This document shows, piece by piece, positions 7,205-18,349 of a stretch of 20,367 nt of DNA (the first letter of the stretch is position 1; every line of letters begins with the position of its first letter). The position numbers and the translations under genes were made by a program. Source of the stretch: a virus; IMG/VR virus record IMGVR_UViG_3300017740_000118, positions 1 through 20,367 of that record; one strand, written 5' to 3'. The notes beneath the pieces are model-generated. The model searched no databases. It worked only from the letters and a program-made list of their open reading frames with translations, and was not told the DNA's origin.

Positions 7205-7960
7205 ATGCCCAACGTAGATACAGTATACCAAAGAGTATTAGCGCTAGCTAACAAAGAGCAAAGAGGTTATATAACACCTCAAGAATTTAACTTGTTAGCC
7301 AATAAAGCTCAGCTTATTATTTTTGAACAATATTTTTATGATATTGATATTGAACTCAACGAGATGGGTGCCAAACAAGCGCCAGGAAATAGCACCGAAT
7401 ATAGTAATAGAATAGATATTTTAGCAGAAAAAATAGCCCCATTTGAGCGGTTCGAAGTAGATATGTCTGCTGTTGCTGGTAACAAGATTTCACTACCAAC
7501 TATAGGTGTAGGTGGGGTTATTGCTGCTGTGCACAAGTTAGGCACGGTATTTTATAACGCGGGTGTTTATAATGTAGAGGTCGAAAGAGTTGAGAAGAAT
7601 GAATTACCTTATATGGAGAGAACAGCTTTAGCCGCTCCAACCAACGAAAGACCCGTTTACCTAAGACAAAGAGATGGTATTATTAAGTTGTATCCAGAAT
7701 CACCGACAGTAGCCTATACGACGGCTAATGTAACTTGCAACTACATAACAAAGCCAACACCGGTTATTTGGGGTTATACAGTCGTAAACAATCAAGCTAT
7801 GTACGATGCTACGACATCTACAGATTTTGAATTGCACGGATCTGAAGAAACTGATTTAGTTTACAAGATATTAGAGTTAGCTGGTATTACTTTAAACAAA
7901 CCAGGTTTAGTTCAAATGGCAGGAGCAGAAGAAAATGAAATAATAGCTAAAAAACAATAA
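7205..7960 (+). CDS. Probable head-tail connector or ring protein (251 aa)
   Basis: The N-terminus is helical (VDTVYQRVLALANKEQRGYI, then TPQEFNLLANKAQLIIFEQY) and matches a structural family I recognise from marine phages, in which a four-helix start precedes a beta-rich body. The body holds SLPTIGVGGVIAAVHKLGTV and a segment of alternating strands (ERPVYLRQRDGIIKLYPESP), ending in a helical tail. It would sit below the portal as an adaptor or ring. The assignment follows family likeness and gene order (after capsid, before the giant tail protein); no catalytic motif is seen. The stop is 3 bases from the next start, so the two connector genes are probably translated together. Which ring it forms is not decidable here. 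Confidence 0.62.
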   Translation: MPNVDTVYQRVLALANKEQRGYITPQEFNLLANKAQLIIFEQYFYDIDIELNEMGAKQAPGNSTEYSNRIDILAEKIAPFERFEVDMSAVAGNKISLPTIGVGGVIAAVHKLGTVFYNAGVYNVEVERVEKNELPYMERTALAAPTNERPVYLRQRDGIIKLYPESPTVAYTTANVTCNYITKPTPVIWGYTVVNNQAMYDATTSTDFELHGSEETDLVYKILELAGITLNKPGLVQMAGAEENEIIAKKQ

Positions 7961-7963
7961 TAA

Positions 7964-8839
7964 ATGGGATTAATAACACAAACAGGACAACAGTATTATA
8001 GTACAGCCTCGCCAACTCCGTTTGGTGATTATCAATTTACATCTTTAGAGCATATTATCAATCAGTTTATTATAGCTTACGTTGGTGAGGATAAGATTAT
8101 ACCTAAGGTAAAAAGAACTGATGTTGCTTTTCACGCTCAAAGAGCTTTGCAAGAATTATCTTTTGATACATTTAAATCTACAAAGTCTCAAGAGATAGTT
8201 TTACCATCATCACTAACCATGAAGCTGCCACAAGATTATGTTAACTATGTTAAGTTTACGTGGAGCGATTCAGCGGGCATAGAACATGTTATATATCCAG
8301 CAGCAAAAACTTCAAACCCACTTCAAGTACAGCAAGATGCAGCGGGTACTTATCTTTATGATAGCACCGCTTTAGATGTTGATAATACATCGACTACTAA
8401 TGCAAATTATCAAGCAGCTACACCTAACGATCTTGATGATTCTGCTAGCGACGAGATATACGCGGCTTTAGCTGGTCAAAGATATGGTATTGATCCTCAA
8501 TACTCCCAAGTAAATGGATCGTTTTTTATAGACGAACTAACGGGATTAGTTCACTTTAGTTCTAATATTGCTGGAAAAACTGTGATAATAAAATACATAA
8601 GCGATAGTCTTGGAACAGATGCCGAAATGAAGGTTCATAAGTTTGCTGAAGAAGCGATGTATAAATGGATAGCACACGCTATACTATCTACAAAAGCAAA
8701 TGTACAAGAATATATCGTACAAAGATTTAAAAAAGAAAGATTTGCTGAGGTAAGAAAAGCTAAATTAAGATTATCTAATATTAAATTAGAAGAGATTACT
8801 CAAATTTTAAGAGGTAAATCGAAACAAATAAAACACTAA
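7964..8839 (+). CDS. Probable tail connector / tail accessory protein (291 aa)
   Basis: The protein opens with a short polar arm, then a helical domain (SLEHIINQFIIAYVGEDKII, VAFHAQRALQELSFDTFKS) and a beta segment with LPSSLTMKLPQDYVNYVKFT and HVIYPAAKTSNP. The helical start with HAQRALQE resembles the P22 gp4-like tail accessory proteins that plug the portal and bind the tail in podoviruses and crAss-like phages; this is a likeness by eye. Residues near 240-291 are basic and helical (KERFAEVRKAKLRLSNIKLE), suited to contact with DNA or portal. It sits 3 bases after the other connector gene and 4 bases before the giant tail gene, forming one tight unit. An alternative is a tail tubular protein A-type ring. 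Confidence 0.62.
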   Translation: MGLITQTGQQYYSTASPTPFGDYQFTSLEHIINQFIIAYVGEDKIIPKVKRTDVAFHAQRALQELSFDTFKSTKSQEIVLPSSLTMKLPQDYVNYVKFTWSDSAGIEHVIYPAAKTSNPLQVQQDAAGTYLYDSTALDVDNTSTTNANYQAATPNDLDDSASDEIYAALAGQRYGIDPQYSQVNGSFFIDELTGLVHFSSNIAGKTVIIKYISDSLGTDAEMKVHKFAEEAMYKWIAHAILSTKANVQEYIVQRFKKERFAEVRKAKLRLSNIKLEEITQILRGKSKQIKH

Positions 8840-8843
8840 TTAA

Positions 8844-11800
8844 ATGCCAGAGTTAAAACGTAACTTTACGAAAGGTCGAATGAACAAAGACCTTGACGAA
8901 AGAATGGTACCTGACGGCGAGTATAGAGACGCTTTAAACGTTGAGATTTCAACATCAGAAGGCTCTAACGTTGGTACTATCCAAACTTTAAAGGGTAATA
9001 CAAACGTCATCACAGGTACTGTTTTATCAAATCTAACCGCGGGCACTAACCTATTTAGCAATGCTAGTTGTGTTGGTAGTATCGTTGATAATAAGTCTAA
9101 CAAGTTGTATTGGTTTGTGGCTGATTCTGGTATAAATTACGATGCTAGTTGGTCCACTGGAAACTCGGCTAACAATACTTATTCCCACGCTGAACAAGAT
9201 GCCTCTGGAACAGTTAGTGTTGTGCATAAAGTTTACTCTGATTATATTTTAGAGTACGACGATAATGCAAAAGAGTGTAATTGGATTGCTGTAGAAAACT
9301 ACAAAGTAGAAACTGTTATATCAAATGACAGTCATAGTACTGGTACTACTCCAGGAGATCATTTACATGTTAGTAATCTTGGTTTACCTGGAGACATACG
9401 ACCAGTTGGAATACAAGTTGGTATGGACGTTTTGGTTAATGGTATAAACACTAGAATAACAAAAATAGAAGAAGATGACACTGGTAGTTGGAATGGTTGG
9501 AGAGTTTATACTGAGCATGCTGCCGCTGACTTTCCTGGTTTAGGAACTATTACCGCTGGTACTAGTATTACTTTTACACTACCAAAAGAAAAAAGAGCTT
9601 TAGGGTTTTCTCACTTTGCAAACACTAGGCCTGGTAAACTTATAACCGGTATAAACGTTATTGATGATCTTTTATTCTGGACGGATAATTTAACAGAGCC
9701 TAAAAAAATAAACATAGAAAGGTGTAAGTACGGATCGACATACGGACCGCACGATAACTCAGCGTCTACACAACCTAGTGCTACCGCGCTATTCCACTCT
9801 TCCGTGTCTGGTGTTATAGTTAACTCAACATATGGAACTAGAAAGTACCCAACATTATTAATAGTAAACGGTTTAATACCATCAAGCGACAATTATAGAC
9901 TAGCATTAAAAACTACTTATGCTTCTGCTATTTTATATCCTTTTTTATCTTACCAACACACAACAGTAATTAAAAAATCTCCATTAACTCCTTTGAAGCT
10001 AACTATGTCCAAAGCTTCTAACTTGCAGTCTAATTTACTTGATTCCAAGGATGGCGTTTTAGTTGTAGATACTAATATTACCCTTGATGAGGTTGCACCT
10101 GGAAGCGGTACTTCTAATTACTTTTTTGATAACTTTGGTGTAAGACACCCAAGTGGTTATACTGGTTTAGACACTATTACCTTTCCACAGGTAATGGATT
10201 GGAAGGAGAGTGATATTATCGAGTTTTACCCAACCAATGACGATGCTGGTTTTGAAGACGAAGCTTTAGTTACTTTAGAAATAACTAGCGCTGTAAACGG
10301 GGTGACTTTTGGGTTCGAGATACAATCTATATCATCAGCAGTGTTACAATCTTTTCGTAATTGGAATGTTAAGTTGCAAGGTAAAGATCCTTTATTTGAG
10401 TTTAAATTTCCAAGATTCGCTTATAGGTGGAGATACGAGGATGGTGAGTACTCTACTTACTCGCCTTTTTCTGAAGTAGCGTTTTTACCAGAAGAATTTG
10501 ATTATTTTCCAAAAAAAGGTTTTAACCTTGGTATGACAAATAACTTGAGATATTTACTACTTTCTAATTTCAAACCAACAACAATGCCACTTGACGTTGT
10601 TGAGATAGACATTGTATACAAGGAATCAAACTCACCAAATATTTATACTGTTGAAACTATAAAGTCTCCAAGTTTTCGTGTTGAAAGTTTAAACACTATA
10701 GATTTTGACGGGGACGATGGGTGGAAGGGTTTAATTGAGGGAACTTCTGGTACTAGTGTGGAGGCTCCAAATACTTTAGAAGAGGTAATGGAGGTGGTTG
10801 GAATAAACACTTTCTCTGGAGATTATGTTTATCAAAATGGAACATACTACATTGGGGTTGAGTCTCTTACTAACATGAGAGTAGGTAGTGTTATTAGATG
10901 GCCGAATCTCAACCCTCAGATACCAACAGCACTCACCGCAAACGTCGTTGTTACTGAAATTATACAAGAGGCTTATACAGAGGTGGATCCCTTAACTGGT
11001 TTAACAGTAAGTGGAGTACGCGATTATATATCATTAAATCATAACGACCCAACAACCCCTACAGCTGTTACGATAAATAGCGCTAGTAATTGGTATACAG
11101 CTGGCACAGAGATATTAGCATACGATATGCAACCTAGAAGACCAGCGGTTTATTTAGACCACCCACAGGGTTCTCTAGAAGTAAAGACTGATATGATTCA
11201 TGCTACTTTACCCGCGAATCAATTGCTAAGGCCTTGGGACAATGTACCTAGAAAATCACTATCGCAAGAGGTTAGTGGGAATAGAGTTGTTTATGGTAAT
11301 TATGTTCAAAATTACGATTTAAAAGATGTGACGGGTAAAATTGTTAAACAGGAATTTAAAGTTGCAAGTGGATATAGAAAAAATATTCGAGAAAACATAA
11401 GGTACAATGCACAGACAGCTTTGTTAAACCCTACGACTGGAGCCACTATTCCTTGGTGGCACTCATTAAACACGATACCGCTAGCTGCGGCAGAGCCAGA
11501 AAGATCTATAAAATCTATACGTGATTATCAAATTGGCGTTGTTTTTTCTGACGAGTTTGGAAGACAGACGCCAGTACAAACCCACGAAACTGGAGTTTTA
11601 AAAATTCCTAAAGCACGTGCTATTAATTACAACGGTTTGAATATTAAGTTAAAAAGATACAATTATCCAGAGTGGGCAACACACTATAAGTATTATATAA
11701 AAGAAAACGCTAACGAGTATTATAATTTAGCAATGGATCGTTTTTACGACGCTGAAGATGGTAATGTTTGGTTATCATTTCCTTCTTCTGAAAGAAACAA

Positions 11801-14800
11801 GGTGGACGAAGAGACTTTTTTGATACTTAAAAAACAACATGATACCGATGTTTTTGTAAAAGAAGACGCTAGGTATAAGATATTAGCTATAGAAAATGAA
11901 GCTCCTGACTTTGTAAAAACAAAATATGATACTTTTGGTATAGTAAGCATCGACCCGTGGCCGACGACTGGAGAACCGAGATTCCAAAATCTTCACATTG
12001 ACATTCCTAGTTCGCATTTTGGTAACGGTGGGGCTTTTTATGGTGCCACTAGTGCTACAGATAGGGTTATGCGAATATTAGATGCCACTAATATATCGCG
12101 ATGGTACAACATCGTGAGTATAGAAACTTACGGTGGCAACAAAAGGGTTAGAGTAGAAAAGAACTTTGAGATAGACATGGCGTTTACCACAGACGACAAT
12201 ACGAATACCGGCGCTATAAACCCAAATTTATCCGTTGAAATCGCTAAAAAAGTAACTAAAATACTCCCAGAGTTTGAGGGAAGGTTTTTTGCGAAGATTT
12301 ATAGAGATGCTGTTGTTGAGAAAAATATACTTGCTTTTACTGCAAATAAAGACTATATTACAACTACACTACTAAAACTAGGACACTCTGATAACATTAC
12401 AGATGCTAAGAACCGTTGGAGATATACGTATAGCGGTGTGAGTGATTTTGGGGGAAGATGGTGGTGTTCCCACGAAGATCCTTACAATGTGCTTGAGGAT
12501 TTTGACGGTTCTCCCGTACTATATGGGCTAAGAAGTAGTACCTTAGATGTTCAAATACACTGGGGTTGGGAAGGCACGGAACATTGGGGTATAACTAGGC
12601 ATGGTAATAATTTTAGAGCAACCAACGCGGTTAAAGATCAAGCCACTAAACTGCGTAATGGTGGGCAGTTATTTAGATGGAAAGGAGATACAACTGTGTA
12701 TAGGGTCGTAAAGGGTAAGGAAAGAGGACAGCGTAATTACAACAAATCAAAATATGCCTCTAATCATAGTGTTGCTATAAGAATGTACTTTGAGCCAAAA
12801 GTTGGTGATACGAGTGGAATTAATAACACCGGTTTAGACGCGGTTGGACAACCGTGTTCGGGTTATGATCCTAGATACAAAAACGCAGAAGGAACCACTG
12901 GTGGCGCTTATAAAGACATTACCTTTTCATCAACTTGGAGTAAATCAGCTTGGATATACAACAACTTAAGCACCGCATCTTACAATAGAAGTATAGAGTT
13001 TTTAGAGGAGTTTATTCCAAATAACAGTTACAGTAGTGATAACCCAGCTATATGGGAGACAGAACCAAAAGAAAATGTTGATGTTGACATTTACAATGAA
13101 GCAAGTGAATGTTATCCTATTAGAGACGAGTGGAACCCTTACTTAAGTCAATTTACTTCTCACACTTATTACAATAGTTGGAATCCAATTAGTTATTATA
13201 ATTGTTTTTCTTTTGCTAATGGTGTTGAATCCAATAGAATCAGAGATGACTTTAACGCTGTTACAATAGACAAGGGACCTAAAGTATCTACCGTGTTAGC
13301 AGAGCAGTATAGAGAAGAGCGTAGGAAATCTGGTTTAATTTATTCTGGTATATACAACTCAACAAGTGGTGTAAATAGATTGAATCAGTTTATAATGGCT
13401 GAGAAGATTACAAAAGATTTAAACCCTACGTATGGTAGTATCCAAAAACTATGGTCAAAAGACACTAGTTTGGTTGCCTTCTGCGAAGATAGAGTAATAG
13501 GTATAACCGCTAATAAAGACGCTTTATATAATGCTGATGGAAACCCACAACTTATCGCTTCGGACAAAGTGCTTGGGGACGCAAAACCTTACACTGGTGA
13601 TTTTGGTATATCTACAGACCCAGAATCATTTGCCTTTGATCAATATAGAGCTTACTTCACCGATAAATCTAGAGGGGCTGTTATAAGATTTTCTCAAAAC
13701 GGTTTAACACCAATATCCGACATGGGTATGAAAGATTACTTTAGAGACGCTTTTCAGTTTCAAAATATTGATTTAAACGGTAGTTACGATACTAACAAAA
13801 GATTATACAACTTAAGCGTAAAACTAGGTTCAACTGCAACCTCAGAGACAGCTGGATGTAGTGATGGTATGGACGTAGCGTTTATAATTGATTACACCTC
13901 TAGCATGGAGAATGCTATTGAAAACGTGAAAACTGGAGTTGCCGCAATAGCGACACACATATCAACGTTAAGCACTTCTAACGACTATAGATTAAGTTTA
14001 TCGATACATGATGAATACGCTACAGAGGCCCCGTACGATAGTACAGAGCCGTTGTATTTAGCGCTTCCTGATTACACAAACTTACCCGCGAGTCAAAGAA
14101 GCGTGACAACAAGTGCTGCTACTAGTACAACTGGTATCGCGTATGGTGGTGGTGGATTTAACAGTCAAGTCTACGGTGGTACAAGAACCTATTACAGAAC
14201 AGCGTTGGAAATGTTCAGTATCAACAACGAAGCTTCATTCTCATCGCAACTCGCTAAATTAAATACCGCCGCACTTCCTCTTGGTTGGGGGTGGGGGCAC
14301 AACATGCCAGAGTCAACTGACACATTAGTAGAGATGGTTGCAAACGCAGCTTTTACTGGACAGTGGAGAAGTGGTGTTGCTAAGTATATCGTAATAATGA
14401 CAGACGCTAATCCCGCTGGTGAAGACGATTTTTTTGACTCTGCTGACACGGTTATTTTAGCCAATTTAGCCGCTGACTTAGTAGCGCAAGATATAAAGGC
14501 AATAGTTGTTGGTCTGGGGGTAAATATGCCAGATGATATTGTTATAGGGGCTACACCTACGTATCCTTGGAGAGATTTTGCAGATGCTACTGGTGGTATT
14601 TGGGACGACGCCGTTCCTAACGGTTACAGCACAGCTGTTATTGACGCTTTATCAGACCTGTGTGATATAACCATCAGTCCTTCTATCAACACAACTCCAC
14701 CAAGCTTTATTACTACGGTTAGTTTTAGCGAGGATTCAAAAGGTTGGACAAGTTTTAAATCTTGGCTACAAGAATCTGGCGCAAGTTTAAACAACAAGTA

Positions 14801-15254
14801 CTTTACTTTTAGCGGAGCAGCATTGTATCAACATCACAGCAACGAAACTAGGAATAATTTTTACGGTATACAGTACCCTTCAACTGTATGTGTTATTTTT
14901 AATGATATGCCGGGTAGTGTTAAAAACTTTAGTTCACTAAGCTACGAGGGTAGTCAATCAAAAATTGATATAAACATTACTGATGGAGAGTATTACAACA
15001 ACGCAGCTGTGGATGGGTGGTTTGCAGAGTTGATAACAACAGACCTAGAAACAGGGTTTATACCTGAGTTTAAAAATAAAGAAGGTAAATGGTTTAATTA
15101 CATAAGAGGGAATCAAACCAACAACTTATCTAATCTTGATGTAAGTCAATTTTCAACACAAGGTATTGGTAGACCTTCGGTTGTCGCTACGACGCAGGAT
15201 CCTAGAGTAGATAAATATACATTAACAATCCAGGATACTGGAGATACAGATTAA
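8844..15254 (+). CDS. Giant tail hub/stabilisation protein with inserted VWA domain (2136 aa)
   Basis: This is probably the main body of a short tail. The start (NFTKGRMNKDLDERMVPDGE, then YRDALNVEIS) is typical of podovirus tail stabilisation or nozzle proteins. Further recognisable parts are the KYYIKENANEYYNLAMDRFY region (about residue 960), NPAIWETEPKE (about 1400) and a beta-propeller-like part with YTGDFGISTDPESFAFDQYR (from about 1583). A VWA domain fills about 1662-1957: the metal-binding motif D-Y-T-S-S starts at D1683, NMPESTDTLVEM gives the second loop, and MTDANP holds T1853 and D1854. After it the tail fold resumes with VSFSEDSKGWTSFKSWL (1959 on) and a conserved C-terminus. C1672 and C1940 bracket the VWA. 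At 2136 aa it is large for the family. The tail role is well supported by neighbours; the VWA role is unknown, perhaps receptor or protein binding. Confidence 0.8.
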   Translation: MPELKRNFTKGRMNKDLDERMVPDGEYRDALNVEISTSEGSNVGTIQTLKGNTNVITGTVLSNLTAGTNLFSNASCVGSIVDNKSNKLYWFVADSGINYDASWSTGNSANNTYSHAEQDASGTVSVVHKVYSDYILEYDDNAKECNWIAVENYKVETVISNDSHSTGTTPGDHLHVSNLGLPGDIRPVGIQVGMDVLVNGINTRITKIEEDDTGSWNGWRVYTEHAAADFPGLGTITAGTSITFTLPKEKRALGFSHFANTRPGKLITGINVIDDLLFWTDNLTEPKKINIERCKYGSTYGPHDNSASTQPSATALFHSSVSGVIVNSTYGTRKYPTLLIVNGLIPSSDNYRLALKTTYASAILYPFLSYQHTTVIKKSPLTPLKLTMSKASNLQSNLLDSKDGVLVVDTNITLDEVAPGSGTSNYFFDNFGVRHPSGYTGLDTITFPQVMDWKESDIIEFYPTNDDAGFEDEALVTLEITSAVNGVTFGFEIQSISSAVLQSFRNWNVKLQGKDPLFEFKFPRFAYRWRYEDGEYSTYSPFSEVAFLPEEFDYFPKKGFNLGMTNNLRYLLLSNFKPTTMPLDVVEIDIVYKESNSPNIYTVETIKSPSFRVESLNTIDFDGDDGWKGLIEGTSGTSVEAPNTLEEVMEVVGINTFSGDYVYQNGTYYIGVESLTNMRVGSVIRWPNLNPQIPTALTANVVVTEIIQEAYTEVDPLTGLTVSGVRDYISLNHNDPTTPTAVTINSASNWYTAGTEILAYDMQPRRPAVYLDHPQGSLEVKTDMIHATLPANQLLRPWDNVPRKSLSQEVSGNRVVYGNYVQNYDLKDVTGKIVKQEFKVASGYRKNIRENIRYNAQTALLNPTTGATIPWWHSLNTIPLAAAEPERSIKSIRDYQIGVVFSDEFGRQTPVQTHETGVLKIPKARAINYNGLNIKLKRYNYPEWATHYKYYIKENANEYYNLAMDRFYDAEDGNVWLSFPSSERNKVDEETFLILKKQHDTDVFVKEDARYKILAIENEAPDFVKTKYDTFGIVSIDPWPTTGEPRFQNLHIDIPSSHFGNGGAFYGATSATDRVMRILDATNISRWYNIVSIETYGGNKRVRVEKNFEIDMAFTTDDNTNTGAINPNLSVEIAKKVTKILPEFEGRFFAKIYRDAVVEKNILAFTANKDYITTTLLKLGHSDNITDAKNRWRYTYSGVSDFGGRWWCSHEDPYNVLEDFDGSPVLYGLRSSTLDVQIHWGWEGTEHWGITRHGNNFRATNAVKDQATKLRNGGQLFRWKGDTTVYRVVKGKERGQRNYNKSKYASNHSVAIRMYFEPKVGDTSGINNTGLDAVGQPCSGYDPRYKNAEGTTGGAYKDITFSSTWSKSAWIYNNLSTASYNRSIEFLEEFIPNNSYSSDNPAIWETEPKENVDVDIYNEASECYPIRDEWNPYLSQFTSHTYYNSWNPISYYNCFSFANGVESNRIRDDFNAVTIDKGPKVSTVLAEQYREERRKSGLIYSGIYNSTSGVNRLNQFIMAEKITKDLNPTYGSIQKLWSKDTSLVAFCEDRVIGITANKDALYNADGNPQLIASDKVLGDAKPYTGDFGISTDPESFAFDQYRAYFTDKSRGAVIRFSQNGLTPISDMGMKDYFRDAFQFQNIDLNGSYDTNKRLYNLSVKLGSTATSETAGCSDGMDVAFIIDYTSSMENAIENVKTGVAAIATHISTLSTSNDYRLSLSIHDEYATEAPYDSTEPLYLALPDYTNLPASQRSVTTSAATSTTGIAYGGGGFNSQVYGGTRTYYRTALEMFSINNEASFSSQLAKLNTAALPLGWGWGHNMPESTDTLVEMVANAAFTGQWRSGVAKYIVIMTDANPAGEDDFFDSADTVILANLAADLVAQDIKAIVVGLGVNMPDDIVIGATPTYPWRDFADATGGIWDDAVPNGYSTAVIDALSDLCDITISPSINTTPPSFITTVSFSEDSKGWTSFKSWLQESGASLNNKYFTFSGAALYQHHSNETRNNFYGIQYPSTVCVIFNDMPGSVKNFSSLSYEGSQSKIDINITDGEYYNNAAVDGWFAELITTDLETGFIPEFKNKEGKWFNYIRGNQTNNLSNLDVSQFSTQGIGRPSVVATTQDPRVDKYTLTIQDTGDTD

Positions 15255-15258
15255 ATAA

Positions 15259-17463
15259 ATGGCAAATAACTATACAATAACATCTAGTGTTACGCAGGAG
15301 AATGTTGGTGATTCAGTAGTCAATGGAACCATACCCTCGAGTGTTGAGTTAACTATAACACCAGACACAGGTTTTGTTTTACAAGCTTCCGATTTTAGTA
15401 TAGGAACAACCTTACCAATAGAGGTTGCTTCTGTTTCCTTTGCAGACACTGGAACAGCTTTAGACCCAACAAACACAGTTGTAGCTACAGTTAATCTAGC
15501 TAGTTGGTATACCATGCCTAACAACTCAGATGTTATCAATATTGATATTGACGGTAGGACACAAGGTTTTAAACCAAGATTAAACTTTACGTCTGTTGTG
15601 GCAGTTGATGCTAATTTTAATGCGGTTTTGAGTGCTGAGGGTGGAACTGGAAGTATTACCTCATCAACCGTTGACTCGATCAAAACAGACACTTATTCAG
15701 GAATGGTTGACCAAAATAAGAACACTTTGGTGTGTACAATGAACATAAGTTTAGCTGATAGCCTAAAACACATGGCAAGTCAACCTTCTTACAGGTTATC
15801 TTCTAGTGACAGTTCTAGGTGGGGCTCTACAACCTCCCCTACGTACGACAGTGAAAACCAGCTTACAGGTATAGTGTATAGTTTTTACTATAACATGGGT
15901 GGTAGTGATATAGACACGTCTCTTGGTGAGAGTATAATATGGTCGCTACCGTCTGTTGTCGAAAACAACAAGACCATAAAGCATATTAGTGGCGCTTATT
16001 ACACTAATTATGAGAACGAATCCATATTACCAGCAGAAAACACCGACCTACAACTAAACGTTGTGGGTAGTGAAACTGGTGATTATGATATAAAAATTGA
16101 AGATACAAATGGTTTAACTTACGATTTTAGCACAAACACCTTTACAAGAGAACAAACGTCTTCTGGTATACAGCGGATATATTCTAAAGAACAACAGGAA
16201 CTACTCGGCCGAGTTGCGTATTTAAATTCACACACTATAAGTTTTCCTGCTTATTTCAAGGAATCTGGATATGATTTTCACTTCAAAACAACTATAACTC
16301 CATCCGATTGGTCAAATGCAAGTGGAACTAGTACTGATCCTCACGTTATAACACTAAGGCAATTTGGAGAGGTTGACTGCGTGTTGTCCACAACAGCCGG
16401 AACGTACGGTACGACTGTTGCTGATACTGTTATAAAAAGCATAACAAACGGAATACCACTATCCACATTATCAAGCTTTATTCCAGCTGACTTCCCAACA
16501 AGAAGTACGAGTAATAATGGGTATTTCTCGTCAACACAAGCTTTAGGGTATACTGTTAATGGTACGGTTTCTTCACATACCCACGTTAGCACGTCTGTTG
16601 TCTTAACGGCAACATCGGCTACTTTAAAACTACAAACCGGAGATAGTGTTACCGGCACGGGTATTGCCACAGATACAACGATAACAGTTGACGGCACTAG
16701 CACTATTGTTTTAAGCAAATCGTCTACCGAAACTATTACTGGTACACTAGTATTCACAAGAACAGTTGGTATATCTAGACAACCTTTAGCTACGGATATA
16801 CACAATGTTATCCCAACCGCTTCATACAGTCCATATTACTATGATTTTAGTGTAATAGAGAGCACGACAAACTCCACGTTGGTAAAAGTAGACCCTACAG
16901 ATGCAACTAATATCTCTGTAGGTATGCTTGTGGAGGGTTATAATGTAATAGGTTACCCAACGGTAGTATCGCATTCAAACGGTATTGTAGAGTTGTCACA
17001 AGCACAAACAATATCTATAGGAGAAAACTTAACTTTTTCTGCTGGAAGATCTTTAGATATAAGTAGATTAGAAGTGACTGGGGCTGGAACAGCAGCTTGT
17101 AAGTTGATTGTGGAGGGAAGCGTGCTTAGAATGGGTTATGGCGACACTTTAGATGCTTTGATTTTAGCTAACTTTATAACAACATACGCAGCACCTACAA
17201 TAGTAGCTGCAACAGCAACTTGTACACTTGACAGTAGTATTACTATAGAACCTTTGTCCGGTTGTACTACTCATACTGGCGTGCTTACGATAGAAGCTAT
17301 TGGAGTGGTAGGGAAAGGTAATGCTAAGATTAGCGATAACAAGCAGTCTATACTATACGTTGCTCCAACAAGTGGTAGCTCTGATACTATAACATATACT
17401 ATAAGCGATGGGGTTAGCGCGACTACAAGTGCTCAAAACATCGTGGTAACTTTAAGACCTTAA
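15259..17463 (+). CDS. Tail fibre / adhesin-like beta-rich protein (734 aa)
   Basis: The protein is rich in Thr, Ser, Val and Gly with little charge, as in phage fibres and surface adhesins. The N-terminal part (ELTITPDTGFVLQASDFSIG, about residues 27-46, through NVINIDIDG-like strands) looks like an Ig-type domain known from phage tail proteins. Two copies of a beta module of the form TL-x-V-x-D-x-T-x-G-x-x-V-x-G-x-G-I occur at about residues 447-500 and 535-596. The last 90 residues contain ILYVAPTSGSSDTITYTISD, a cadherin- or Big-like Ig domain common in cell-surface binding. It starts 4 bases after the giant tail gene and likely attaches to it. Receptor binding is inferred; a minor tail or head-fibre protein is the alternative. 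No collagen repeats or hydrolase motif were seen. Confidence 0.65.
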   Translation: MANNYTITSSVTQENVGDSVVNGTIPSSVELTITPDTGFVLQASDFSIGTTLPIEVASVSFADTGTALDPTNTVVATVNLASWYTMPNNSDVINIDIDGRTQGFKPRLNFTSVVAVDANFNAVLSAEGGTGSITSSTVDSIKTDTYSGMVDQNKNTLVCTMNISLADSLKHMASQPSYRLSSSDSSRWGSTTSPTYDSENQLTGIVYSFYYNMGGSDIDTSLGESIIWSLPSVVENNKTIKHISGAYYTNYENESILPAENTDLQLNVVGSETGDYDIKIEDTNGLTYDFSTNTFTREQTSSGIQRIYSKEQQELLGRVAYLNSHTISFPAYFKESGYDFHFKTTITPSDWSNASGTSTDPHVITLRQFGEVDCVLSTTAGTYGTTVADTVIKSITNGIPLSTLSSFIPADFPTRSTSNNGYFSSTQALGYTVNGTVSSHTHVSTSVVLTATSATLKLQTGDSVTGTGIATDTTITVDGTSTIVLSKSSTETITGTLVFTRTVGISRQPLATDIHNVIPTASYSPYYYDFSVIESTTNSTLVKVDPTDATNISVGMLVEGYNVIGYPTVVSHSNGIVELSQAQTISIGENLTFSAGRSLDISRLEVTGAGTAACKLIVEGSVLRMGYGDTLDALILANFITTYAAPTIVAATATCTLDSSITIEPLSGCTTHTGVLTIEAIGVVGKGNAKISDNKQSILYVAPTSGSSDTITYTISDGVSATTSAQNIVVTLRP

Positions 17464-17855: not shown

Positions 17856-17870
17856 TTAAATTAAATTAAA
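17856..17870 (+). promoter_or_regulatory. TTAAA tandem leader before the cupin-like gene
   Basis: Three tandem TTAAA units run directly into the start codon, the last A being the first base of ATG. Like the capsid leader it offers an unstructured A/T-rich landing site and no Shine-Dalgarno motif. Confidence 0.4.
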
Positions 17871-18349
17871 TGGCTGACGAACAAGAGATAATAAAAAGAG
17901 AGAACCAACTACTAGCAAGAAGTAAAATTTTAGATGTAGAAAACGCTTTGCTCGAACTTGTAGATGGGGTGAATATCGTAAAAGGAGATTCTGACGTATG
18001 TCCTTTAAAACATACTTTTACAGAAGGTATATACGTGAGGCAAATGTCTATGAAAAAAGACTCTGCTGCTATAGGTAAGATACATAAAGATGATCACGTT
18101 TGGTTTTTAATGTCTGGAAGTATATGTGTAGCATCGGAAACTAGTTCTGAAAACTATGAAGCTCCTTGCTACGTAGAGGCTCCAGCTGGATCTAAGAGAG
18201 TTTTGTATGCAATTGAAGATTGCGTTTGGGTGAATGTGTATCCTAACCCAACAAACACAGAGGATTTAGAAGAATTAGAGGAGATGATTATAGCTAAGGA
18301 CTATAACGAATTTGAAGAATATATGAATAATAAAAACAATACAATATGA
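17870..18349 (+). CDS. Cupin-like small protein (159 aa)
   Basis: The central part (about residues 55-135) has the strand pattern and glycines of a single cupin barrel: GKIHKDDHVWFLMSGSICVA, then YVEAPAGSKRVLYAIEDCVW. Similar cupin-like proteins occur widely among phage tail genes. The metal site looks degenerate: H72 and H76 are spaced H-x3-H rather than H-x-H, and PAGSKR (from P105) lacks the usual later histidine, so an enzyme role is doubtful. The N-terminus is helical (KRENQLLARSKILDVENALL) and the C-terminus very acidic (NTEDLEELEEMI). Its place between fibre and internal virion genes suggests a structural or assembly part, perhaps binding a tail fibre or sugar. The stop overlaps the next start by 4 bases (ATGA), indicating translational coupling. 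Confidence 0.68.
   Translation: MADEQEIIKRENQLLARSKILDVENALLELVDGVNIVKGDSDVCPLKHTFTEGIYVRQMSMKKDSAAIGKIHKDDHVWFLMSGSICVASETSSENYEAPCYVEAPAGSKRVLYAIEDCVWVNVYPNPTNTEDLEELEEMIIAKDYNEFEEYMNNKNNTI

Follow-up and report, generated by a model that had tools for sequence, protein, structure and literature searches.

The muzzle gene and its surroundings

The window, meaning the whole 20,367-nucleotide stretch of viral DNA that was analyzed (IMG/VR record IMGVR_UViG_3300017740_000118), carries genes in the order terminase, portal, capsid, ring-type proteins, and muzzle. The muzzle gene occupies positions 8844–15254 and codes for a protein of 2,136 amino acids of the tail-tip gatekeeper type; its features and the two genes upstream of it described here all lie on the plus strand. 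An earlier note on this DNA had called the product a giant phage tail protein, and a tail protein it is, but Pfam, PHROG, and structural matches of the flanks (7QOL/7QOK) allow it to be named more precisely as a crassvirus muzzle protein, with a propeller homologous to that of gp44 from phicrAss001. The crAss_MUZ_C domain (Pfam PF25729; residues 2002–2090, positions 14847–15113) scores 31.6 bits against a cut-off of 27 (E = 2.3e-7), and phrog_14478 matches the protein with an E-value of 5.8e-124. A profile built from the flanks aligns with gp44 in hhalign (E = 9e-9) and puts the insertion point discussed below at about gp44 residues 1195–1200. When the predicted flank structure is compared with solved structures, 7QOL and 7QOK, both of the phicrAss001 tail/muzzle, are the top two (Z = 11.5 and 10.6). 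The gene order is consistent with this identity.

Upstream lie a probable tail ring protein (7205–7960; phrog_14543, E = 3.5e-29, with Pfam CrAss_Ring_3_4 at only 0.033) and, directly 5' of the muzzle, a virion protein (7964–8839; phrog_13977, E = 3e-43). After the muzzle come a 734-amino acid open reading frame (ORF) with a weak Ig-like match (15259–17463) and a fibre-type gene matching phrog_12032 and phrog_24280 (17870–18349). In several other records (L016, L018, L020, L022, L026, and others), the ORF of the muzzle continues for several hundred residues more, so the muzzle and a protein of the 734-residue type may be fused there. The N-terminal half of the window's muzzle (8844–13000) has several extra long segments that are missing from the muzzles of phi38:1, elemo, and Panino (alignment A1). 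In Maribacter phage Panino (L002, 7445–7620), the muzzle frame is broken after YGSIQKLF and resumes in another frame, which is why that muzzle is annotated as two genes. The nearest named relatives of the window are the Pervagoviridae, the Pachyviridae, Elemovirus, and phage Panino; the source phage is here called crAss-like only.

The published muzzle is a hexamer at the end of the tail, with a seven-bladed propeller in which a loop of blade 4 forms the gate; its distal domain is the part that probably touches the cell, and the tip is thought to gate ejection (PMC10172136). By analogy with gp44, the muzzle of the window would likewise be a hexameric gate at the tail tip. The known variation in muzzle length comes from extra sequence inserted into the crass and IG2 domains (PMC10172136). 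The insertion found here is in another place, the propeller.

An integrin-type VWA domain in a propeller hairpin

The segment at 13827–14714 corresponds to residues 1662–1957 of the muzzle, and the earlier note had read it as a metal-binding VWA domain set into a loop of the tail fold. The inserted cassette, linkers included, spans residues 1662–1955 (13827–14708), as judged from what is missing in short-hairpin relatives such as L009, and the VWA core runs from C1672 to C1940 (13857–14663), as placed by the AlphaFold2 model and its integrin beta I-like match. On either side are the two strands of a single beta-hairpin, each aligned in 34 sequences: strand 1 (residues 1653–1661, RLYNLSVKL, 13800–13826) and strand 2 (residues 1959–1968, VSFSEDSKGW, 14718–14747). 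In 33 aligned relatives, strand 1 (YNLTL) runs straight into strand 2 (TVSFSE..KGW) through a turn of a few residues. For example, L009 has an 11-residue turn at the hairpin, with both flanks 72–73% identical to those of the window. Exactly the VWA segment is missing from every short-hairpin relative. The VWA is thus an insertion in one otherwise conserved hairpin of the muzzle propeller; as the note had supposed, it sits in a loop and is not fused at an end, and it is not an inseparable part of the tail fold. A second copy of the in-line VWA on a muzzle was sought in IMG/VR and not found, leaving a single contig. There are no direct repeats of 7 or more bases at the ends of the insert and hence no trace of a transposition mechanism.

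The relatives of the domain were gathered by similarity and by pattern. A phmmer search with the VWA segment finds about 40 viral ORFs (E = 5e-31 to 4.5e-49), and a DNA pattern for F-x-x-D-Y-T-[GS]-S-M finds 65 loci in IMG/VR, nearly all of which form one coherent family with the window VWA by phmmer. Pfam VWA (PF00092) matches 38 of the 39 members of the aligned family, the best at 2.3e-8, and Integrin_beta also matches 10 of them; the window VWA taken alone reaches 19.2–19.5 bits, below the Pfam cut-off of 23.8. Modeled with 38 homologues in AlphaFold2, the domain is predicted with a pLDDT of 86.7 and a pTM of 0.89. Folding the C-terminal 691 residues on muzzle relatives alone gave a pTM of 0.37 and left the VWA mostly below a pLDDT of 50, since no relative in that alignment carries the domain. 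Integrin beta I-like domains come first when the model is compared with solved structures, both in Foldseek (best 4wk4_B, 7.2e-9) and in VIA-align (best 9iuj_B, Z = 19.2, 2.9 Å over 198 residues). The VWAs of TFIIH p34, Rpn10, and BatB follow with Z-scores of 16–18. A phmmer search of the PDB with the VWA or the whole muzzle gave no meaningful match. As modeled, the inserted segment folds as an integrin-beta-type VWA domain, with the Rossmann-like alternation of strands and helices that the earlier reading called for.

The MIDAS residues are present in all three loops (D1683, T1685, S1687, E1823, and D1854). Loop 1 is D1683-Y-T1685-S-S1687 (13890–13904), of the form DxTxS; the second loop is G1818-H-N-M-P1822-E1823-S-T, ending at T1825; and loop 3 holds T1853-D1854 (14400–14405). 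D1683, T1685, S1687, T1853, and D1854 all stand where the note had put them. Its account of the second loop needs changing, as the ligand there is most likely not a threonine. In integrin beta 3, a D-x-PE motif supplies its glutamate as the metal ligand of loop 2, and the aspartate of loop 3 follows 31 residues later. E1823 (14310–14312), in a PE motif, has the same spacing to D1854, and for this reason it is proposed as the probable ligand. In the 39-row family, D1677, E1823 (39 of 39), and D1854 are invariant and T1853 is at least 90% conserved; the invariance of D1683-Y-T1685-x-S1687-M there is by construction, because the DNA search pattern demanded these residues. The domain is proposed to bind a divalent metal.

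C1672 (13857–13859) and C1940 (14661–14663) are the only cysteine pair of the insert, both at least 90% conserved in the family, and a disulfide between them could close the base of the domain. Also, an extra segment that separates beta2 from the helix after it (about residues 1727–1795, 14022–14228; alignment A5 and the model) may, by its position, be equivalent to the specificity-determining loop of integrin beta. Most relatives have a shorter Gly/Ser-rich part in this segment than the window does (alignment A5).

Exchanged cassettes and split genes at the hairpin

Three scans of IMG/VR yielded 167 distinct muzzle homologues with a readable hairpin site. The hairpin is short in 115 of them (at most 25 extra residues in 107, 26–60 in 8), while 24 carry 61–300 extra residues and 19 carry more than 300, up to 1,440; in the other 9, strand 2 is missing from the same ORF. 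By phmmer, the large inserts (43 of the 167; 110–1,440 residues) form 13 groups, none with detectable similarity to another, and the window VWA is a further group. These groups are true families, one with 14 members (955–1,440 residues) and another with 10 (177–291 residues). The inserts do not follow their flanks. Between the window and its near relatives, the flanks are 66–81% identical and the inserts unrelated, whereas the type II inserts of L007 and L178 are 54% identical to each other with flanks at only 63% and 45%. A FastTree tree of the flanks, in which many branches are weak, needs 23 changes of insert type against a minimum of 14. The hairpin is an insertion hot spot, and its cassette has been exchanged among relatives.

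The giant cassettes of 955–1,440 residues (L104, 8111–11491; L127, L150, L151, L153, L159, L161, L166, L170, L174, L191, L199, L201, and L216) bring the muzzle to as much as about 3,450 residues. The two members tested, L104 and L127, have no convincing Pfam or PHROG match, and the other IMG/VR cassettes tested gave no confident match to either collection.

In at least 10 records (L149, L176, L181, L193, L224, L238, L249, L261, L273, and phi46:3), the muzzle gene is broken at this same hairpin. The first ORF ends with strand 1 plus, in most cases, a cassette, and strand 2 is found in a later ORF, mostly right after the start codon (e.g., MAYTLTYSENAKGWPSF), so that it begins the second chain. 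In L176 and L193, the first ORF stops immediately after strand 1 and has no cassette. The cultured Cellulophaga phage phi46:3 (L006) has its muzzle divided at the hairpin as gp111/gp112, and the C-terminal cassette of gp111 is a bacterial Ig/cadherin-like domain (2.7e-20). That the fold tolerates both a broken chain and inserts above 1,000 residues at this one turn suggests that the turn is probably exposed.

The VWA family itself ends the first chain of the split muzzles in L224, L238, L249, L261, and L273, and in L269 it follows strand 1 before the end of the contig cuts the muzzle. On the VWA tree, well-supported branches put muzzle-borne copies in at least three places, so this family has been used on the muzzle repeatedly; the window VWA is on a long branch and can be placed only roughly. 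In many other viral copies, the VWA is the end of a protein of about 750 residues with no detectable muzzle flanks (L218, L226, L253, and dozens more, starting about MIPTNSSNSTNGCDSISSNCVIWQGPDI). Searches of 50,697 annotated phage records with the window segment and with the relative L218 found no member of the family, and exact peptide patterns of the VWA had no match in IMG/VR.

Outside viruses, a scan of 84,980 bacterial and archaeal species genomes found 26 loci, all Bacteroidota by title. The carriers are proteins of about 290 residues with a lipoprotein-type N-terminus (L293, L294, L298, and similar) and proteins of about 1,080 residues with bacterial Ig domains before the VWA. In Niabella aurantiaca (L293), the shorter type is encoded beside an OmpA-like gene. 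The longer type occurs in Chryseobacterium (L283–L287 and L289–L291; e.g., L284, 1475–4714), with tandem bacterial Ig domains and the VWA at the end. These Chryseobacterium genes adjoin a similar large ORF, and together they may belong to a surface apparatus, phage-tail-like or of another kind.

Proposed role and relation to known systems

The reading that best fits these results, to which a probability of about 0.6 can be given, is that the hairpin serves the tail tip as a display site with exchangeable contents and that the window carries there a metal-dependent, integrin-type VWA that probably binds a surface ligand of a Bacteroidota host. The muzzle hexamer would close the tail tip. One hairpin of its propeller accepts whole domains with the fold undisturbed, as it does in many lineages, and here it holds the integrin-beta-type VWA, whose base may be closed by the cysteines at its two ends. 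The tip would then display six copies outward, each holding a divalent metal through D1683, T1685, S1687, E1823, and D1854. On the host side, the VWA would bind an acidic group, or another that seeks metal, on a surface protein or matrix, so that docking would be metal dependent and could help to trigger the opening of the muzzle. Of course, MIDAS residues are also present in VWAs that work inside cells and not as adhesins, and the in-line VWA comes from one contig only. Also, the length variation described in the literature is in the crass and IG2 domains rather than the propeller (PMC10172136).

Other explanations have to be weighed against this one. The VWA may be a weak, general adhesin that binds matrix, particles, or the partners of host VWA proteins and raises the encounter rate, with the true receptor bound by separate fibres. 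The same family is found in Bacteroidota lipoprotein-like and Ig-containing proteins, so a phage could exploit the same ligands as the VWAs of its host, and the fibre-type gene at 17870–18349 is close by. However, the family has come to sit on the muzzle more than once, which speaks for a step close to the cell envelope, and a role in general adhesion is unlikely. A purely structural role is improbable too. Here the VWA would bind a neighboring virion protein (a muzzle subunit, a tail fibre, or the downstream Ig-type protein) and strengthen the tail tip without touching the host. VWA domains often mediate contacts within protein complexes, and the next gene codes for the 734-residue protein with the weak Ig-like match; but in close relatives with flanks 70–80% identical the insert is missing or unrelated, so the VWA is not required by any conserved partner, and cassettes of 110–1,440 residues at one point are ill-suited to a single structural role. 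An assembly chimera of two unrelated pieces, suggested by the single contig and by a G+C content of 0.44 in the insert against 0.35–0.36 in the flanks, is very hard to credit, given that the reading frame is open through both junctions, that 43 other large inserts enter at precisely the hairpin turn where these junctions lie, that synonymous codon use does not differ between insert and flanks (p = 0.24), and that six further contigs have muzzles with a VWA of this family.

With so many unrelated domains in the same loop of related phages, the hairpin resembles a plug-in socket that takes modules for surface recognition. Whether crAss-like lineages trade unrelated recognition domains of 100–1,400 residues through it, each swap changing the host surface recognized, with an integrin-type module in common with Bacteroidota hosts and with some lineages cutting the gene at this point, is taken together a matter of even odds. 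To our knowledge, host recognition by crAss-like phages is largely unknown. From many genomes, a precise and exchangeable insertion point on the tail-tip gate yields a shortlist of candidate receptor-binding modules with which the question can be put to the test. The integrin-type module common to phage and Bacteroidota proteins also suggests a trade of adhesion domains between phages and their hosts.

In the open-access papers searched, a set limited in extent, no VWA is described on a crassvirus, and neither are the combination of VWA and muzzle, a phage VWA of integrin-beta type, a propeller-hairpin socket, or the splitting of the gene there; the phage VWAs of the literature are AAA ATPase partners or cobaltochelatase-like. 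The closest system for the backbone is gp44 of phicrAss001 (7QOK, 7QOL; PMC10172136), which has the homologous propeller and C-terminal domain. Unlike the window, gp44 has a short turn at about residues 1195–1200, and its published account has insertions in the crass and IG2 domains, with no propeller-hairpin insert and no VWA. For the inserted domain, the best structural match is the integrin beta I-like (beta-A) domain, e.g., that of beta 3, which has the PE glutamate and the long post-beta2 insertion at about 16% identity. An integrin beta subunit has this domain inserted into a hybrid domain and accompanied by PSI and EGF-type modules, whereas that of the window is flanked by a phage propeller; the likeness is of the domain alone, so the VWA may work like integrin beta but is not one.

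The Bacteroidota proteins (about 1,080 residues in Chryseobacterium; about 290 in Niabella, Lutibacter, and Pedobacter) belong to the sequence family of the window VWA, with 35–42% identity over full-length matches, and have the cysteine pair and the motifs, but they are encoded in cellular genomes and sit on other protein backbones. Mfa5 of Porphyromonas gingivalis (6TNJ; PMC7835359) likewise presents a VWA on a Bacteroidota surface appendage; its profile match is weak (E = 0.055, non-significant alone), and it is a fimbrial tip/pilus protein rather than a phage one. In phi46:3, gp111/gp112 has an adhesion-type cassette at the same muzzle hairpin, though in two genes and with the VWA replaced by a bacterial domain of Ig/cadherin-like type. 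Muzzles, VWA domains, and modular phage adhesins are each of a kind already known.
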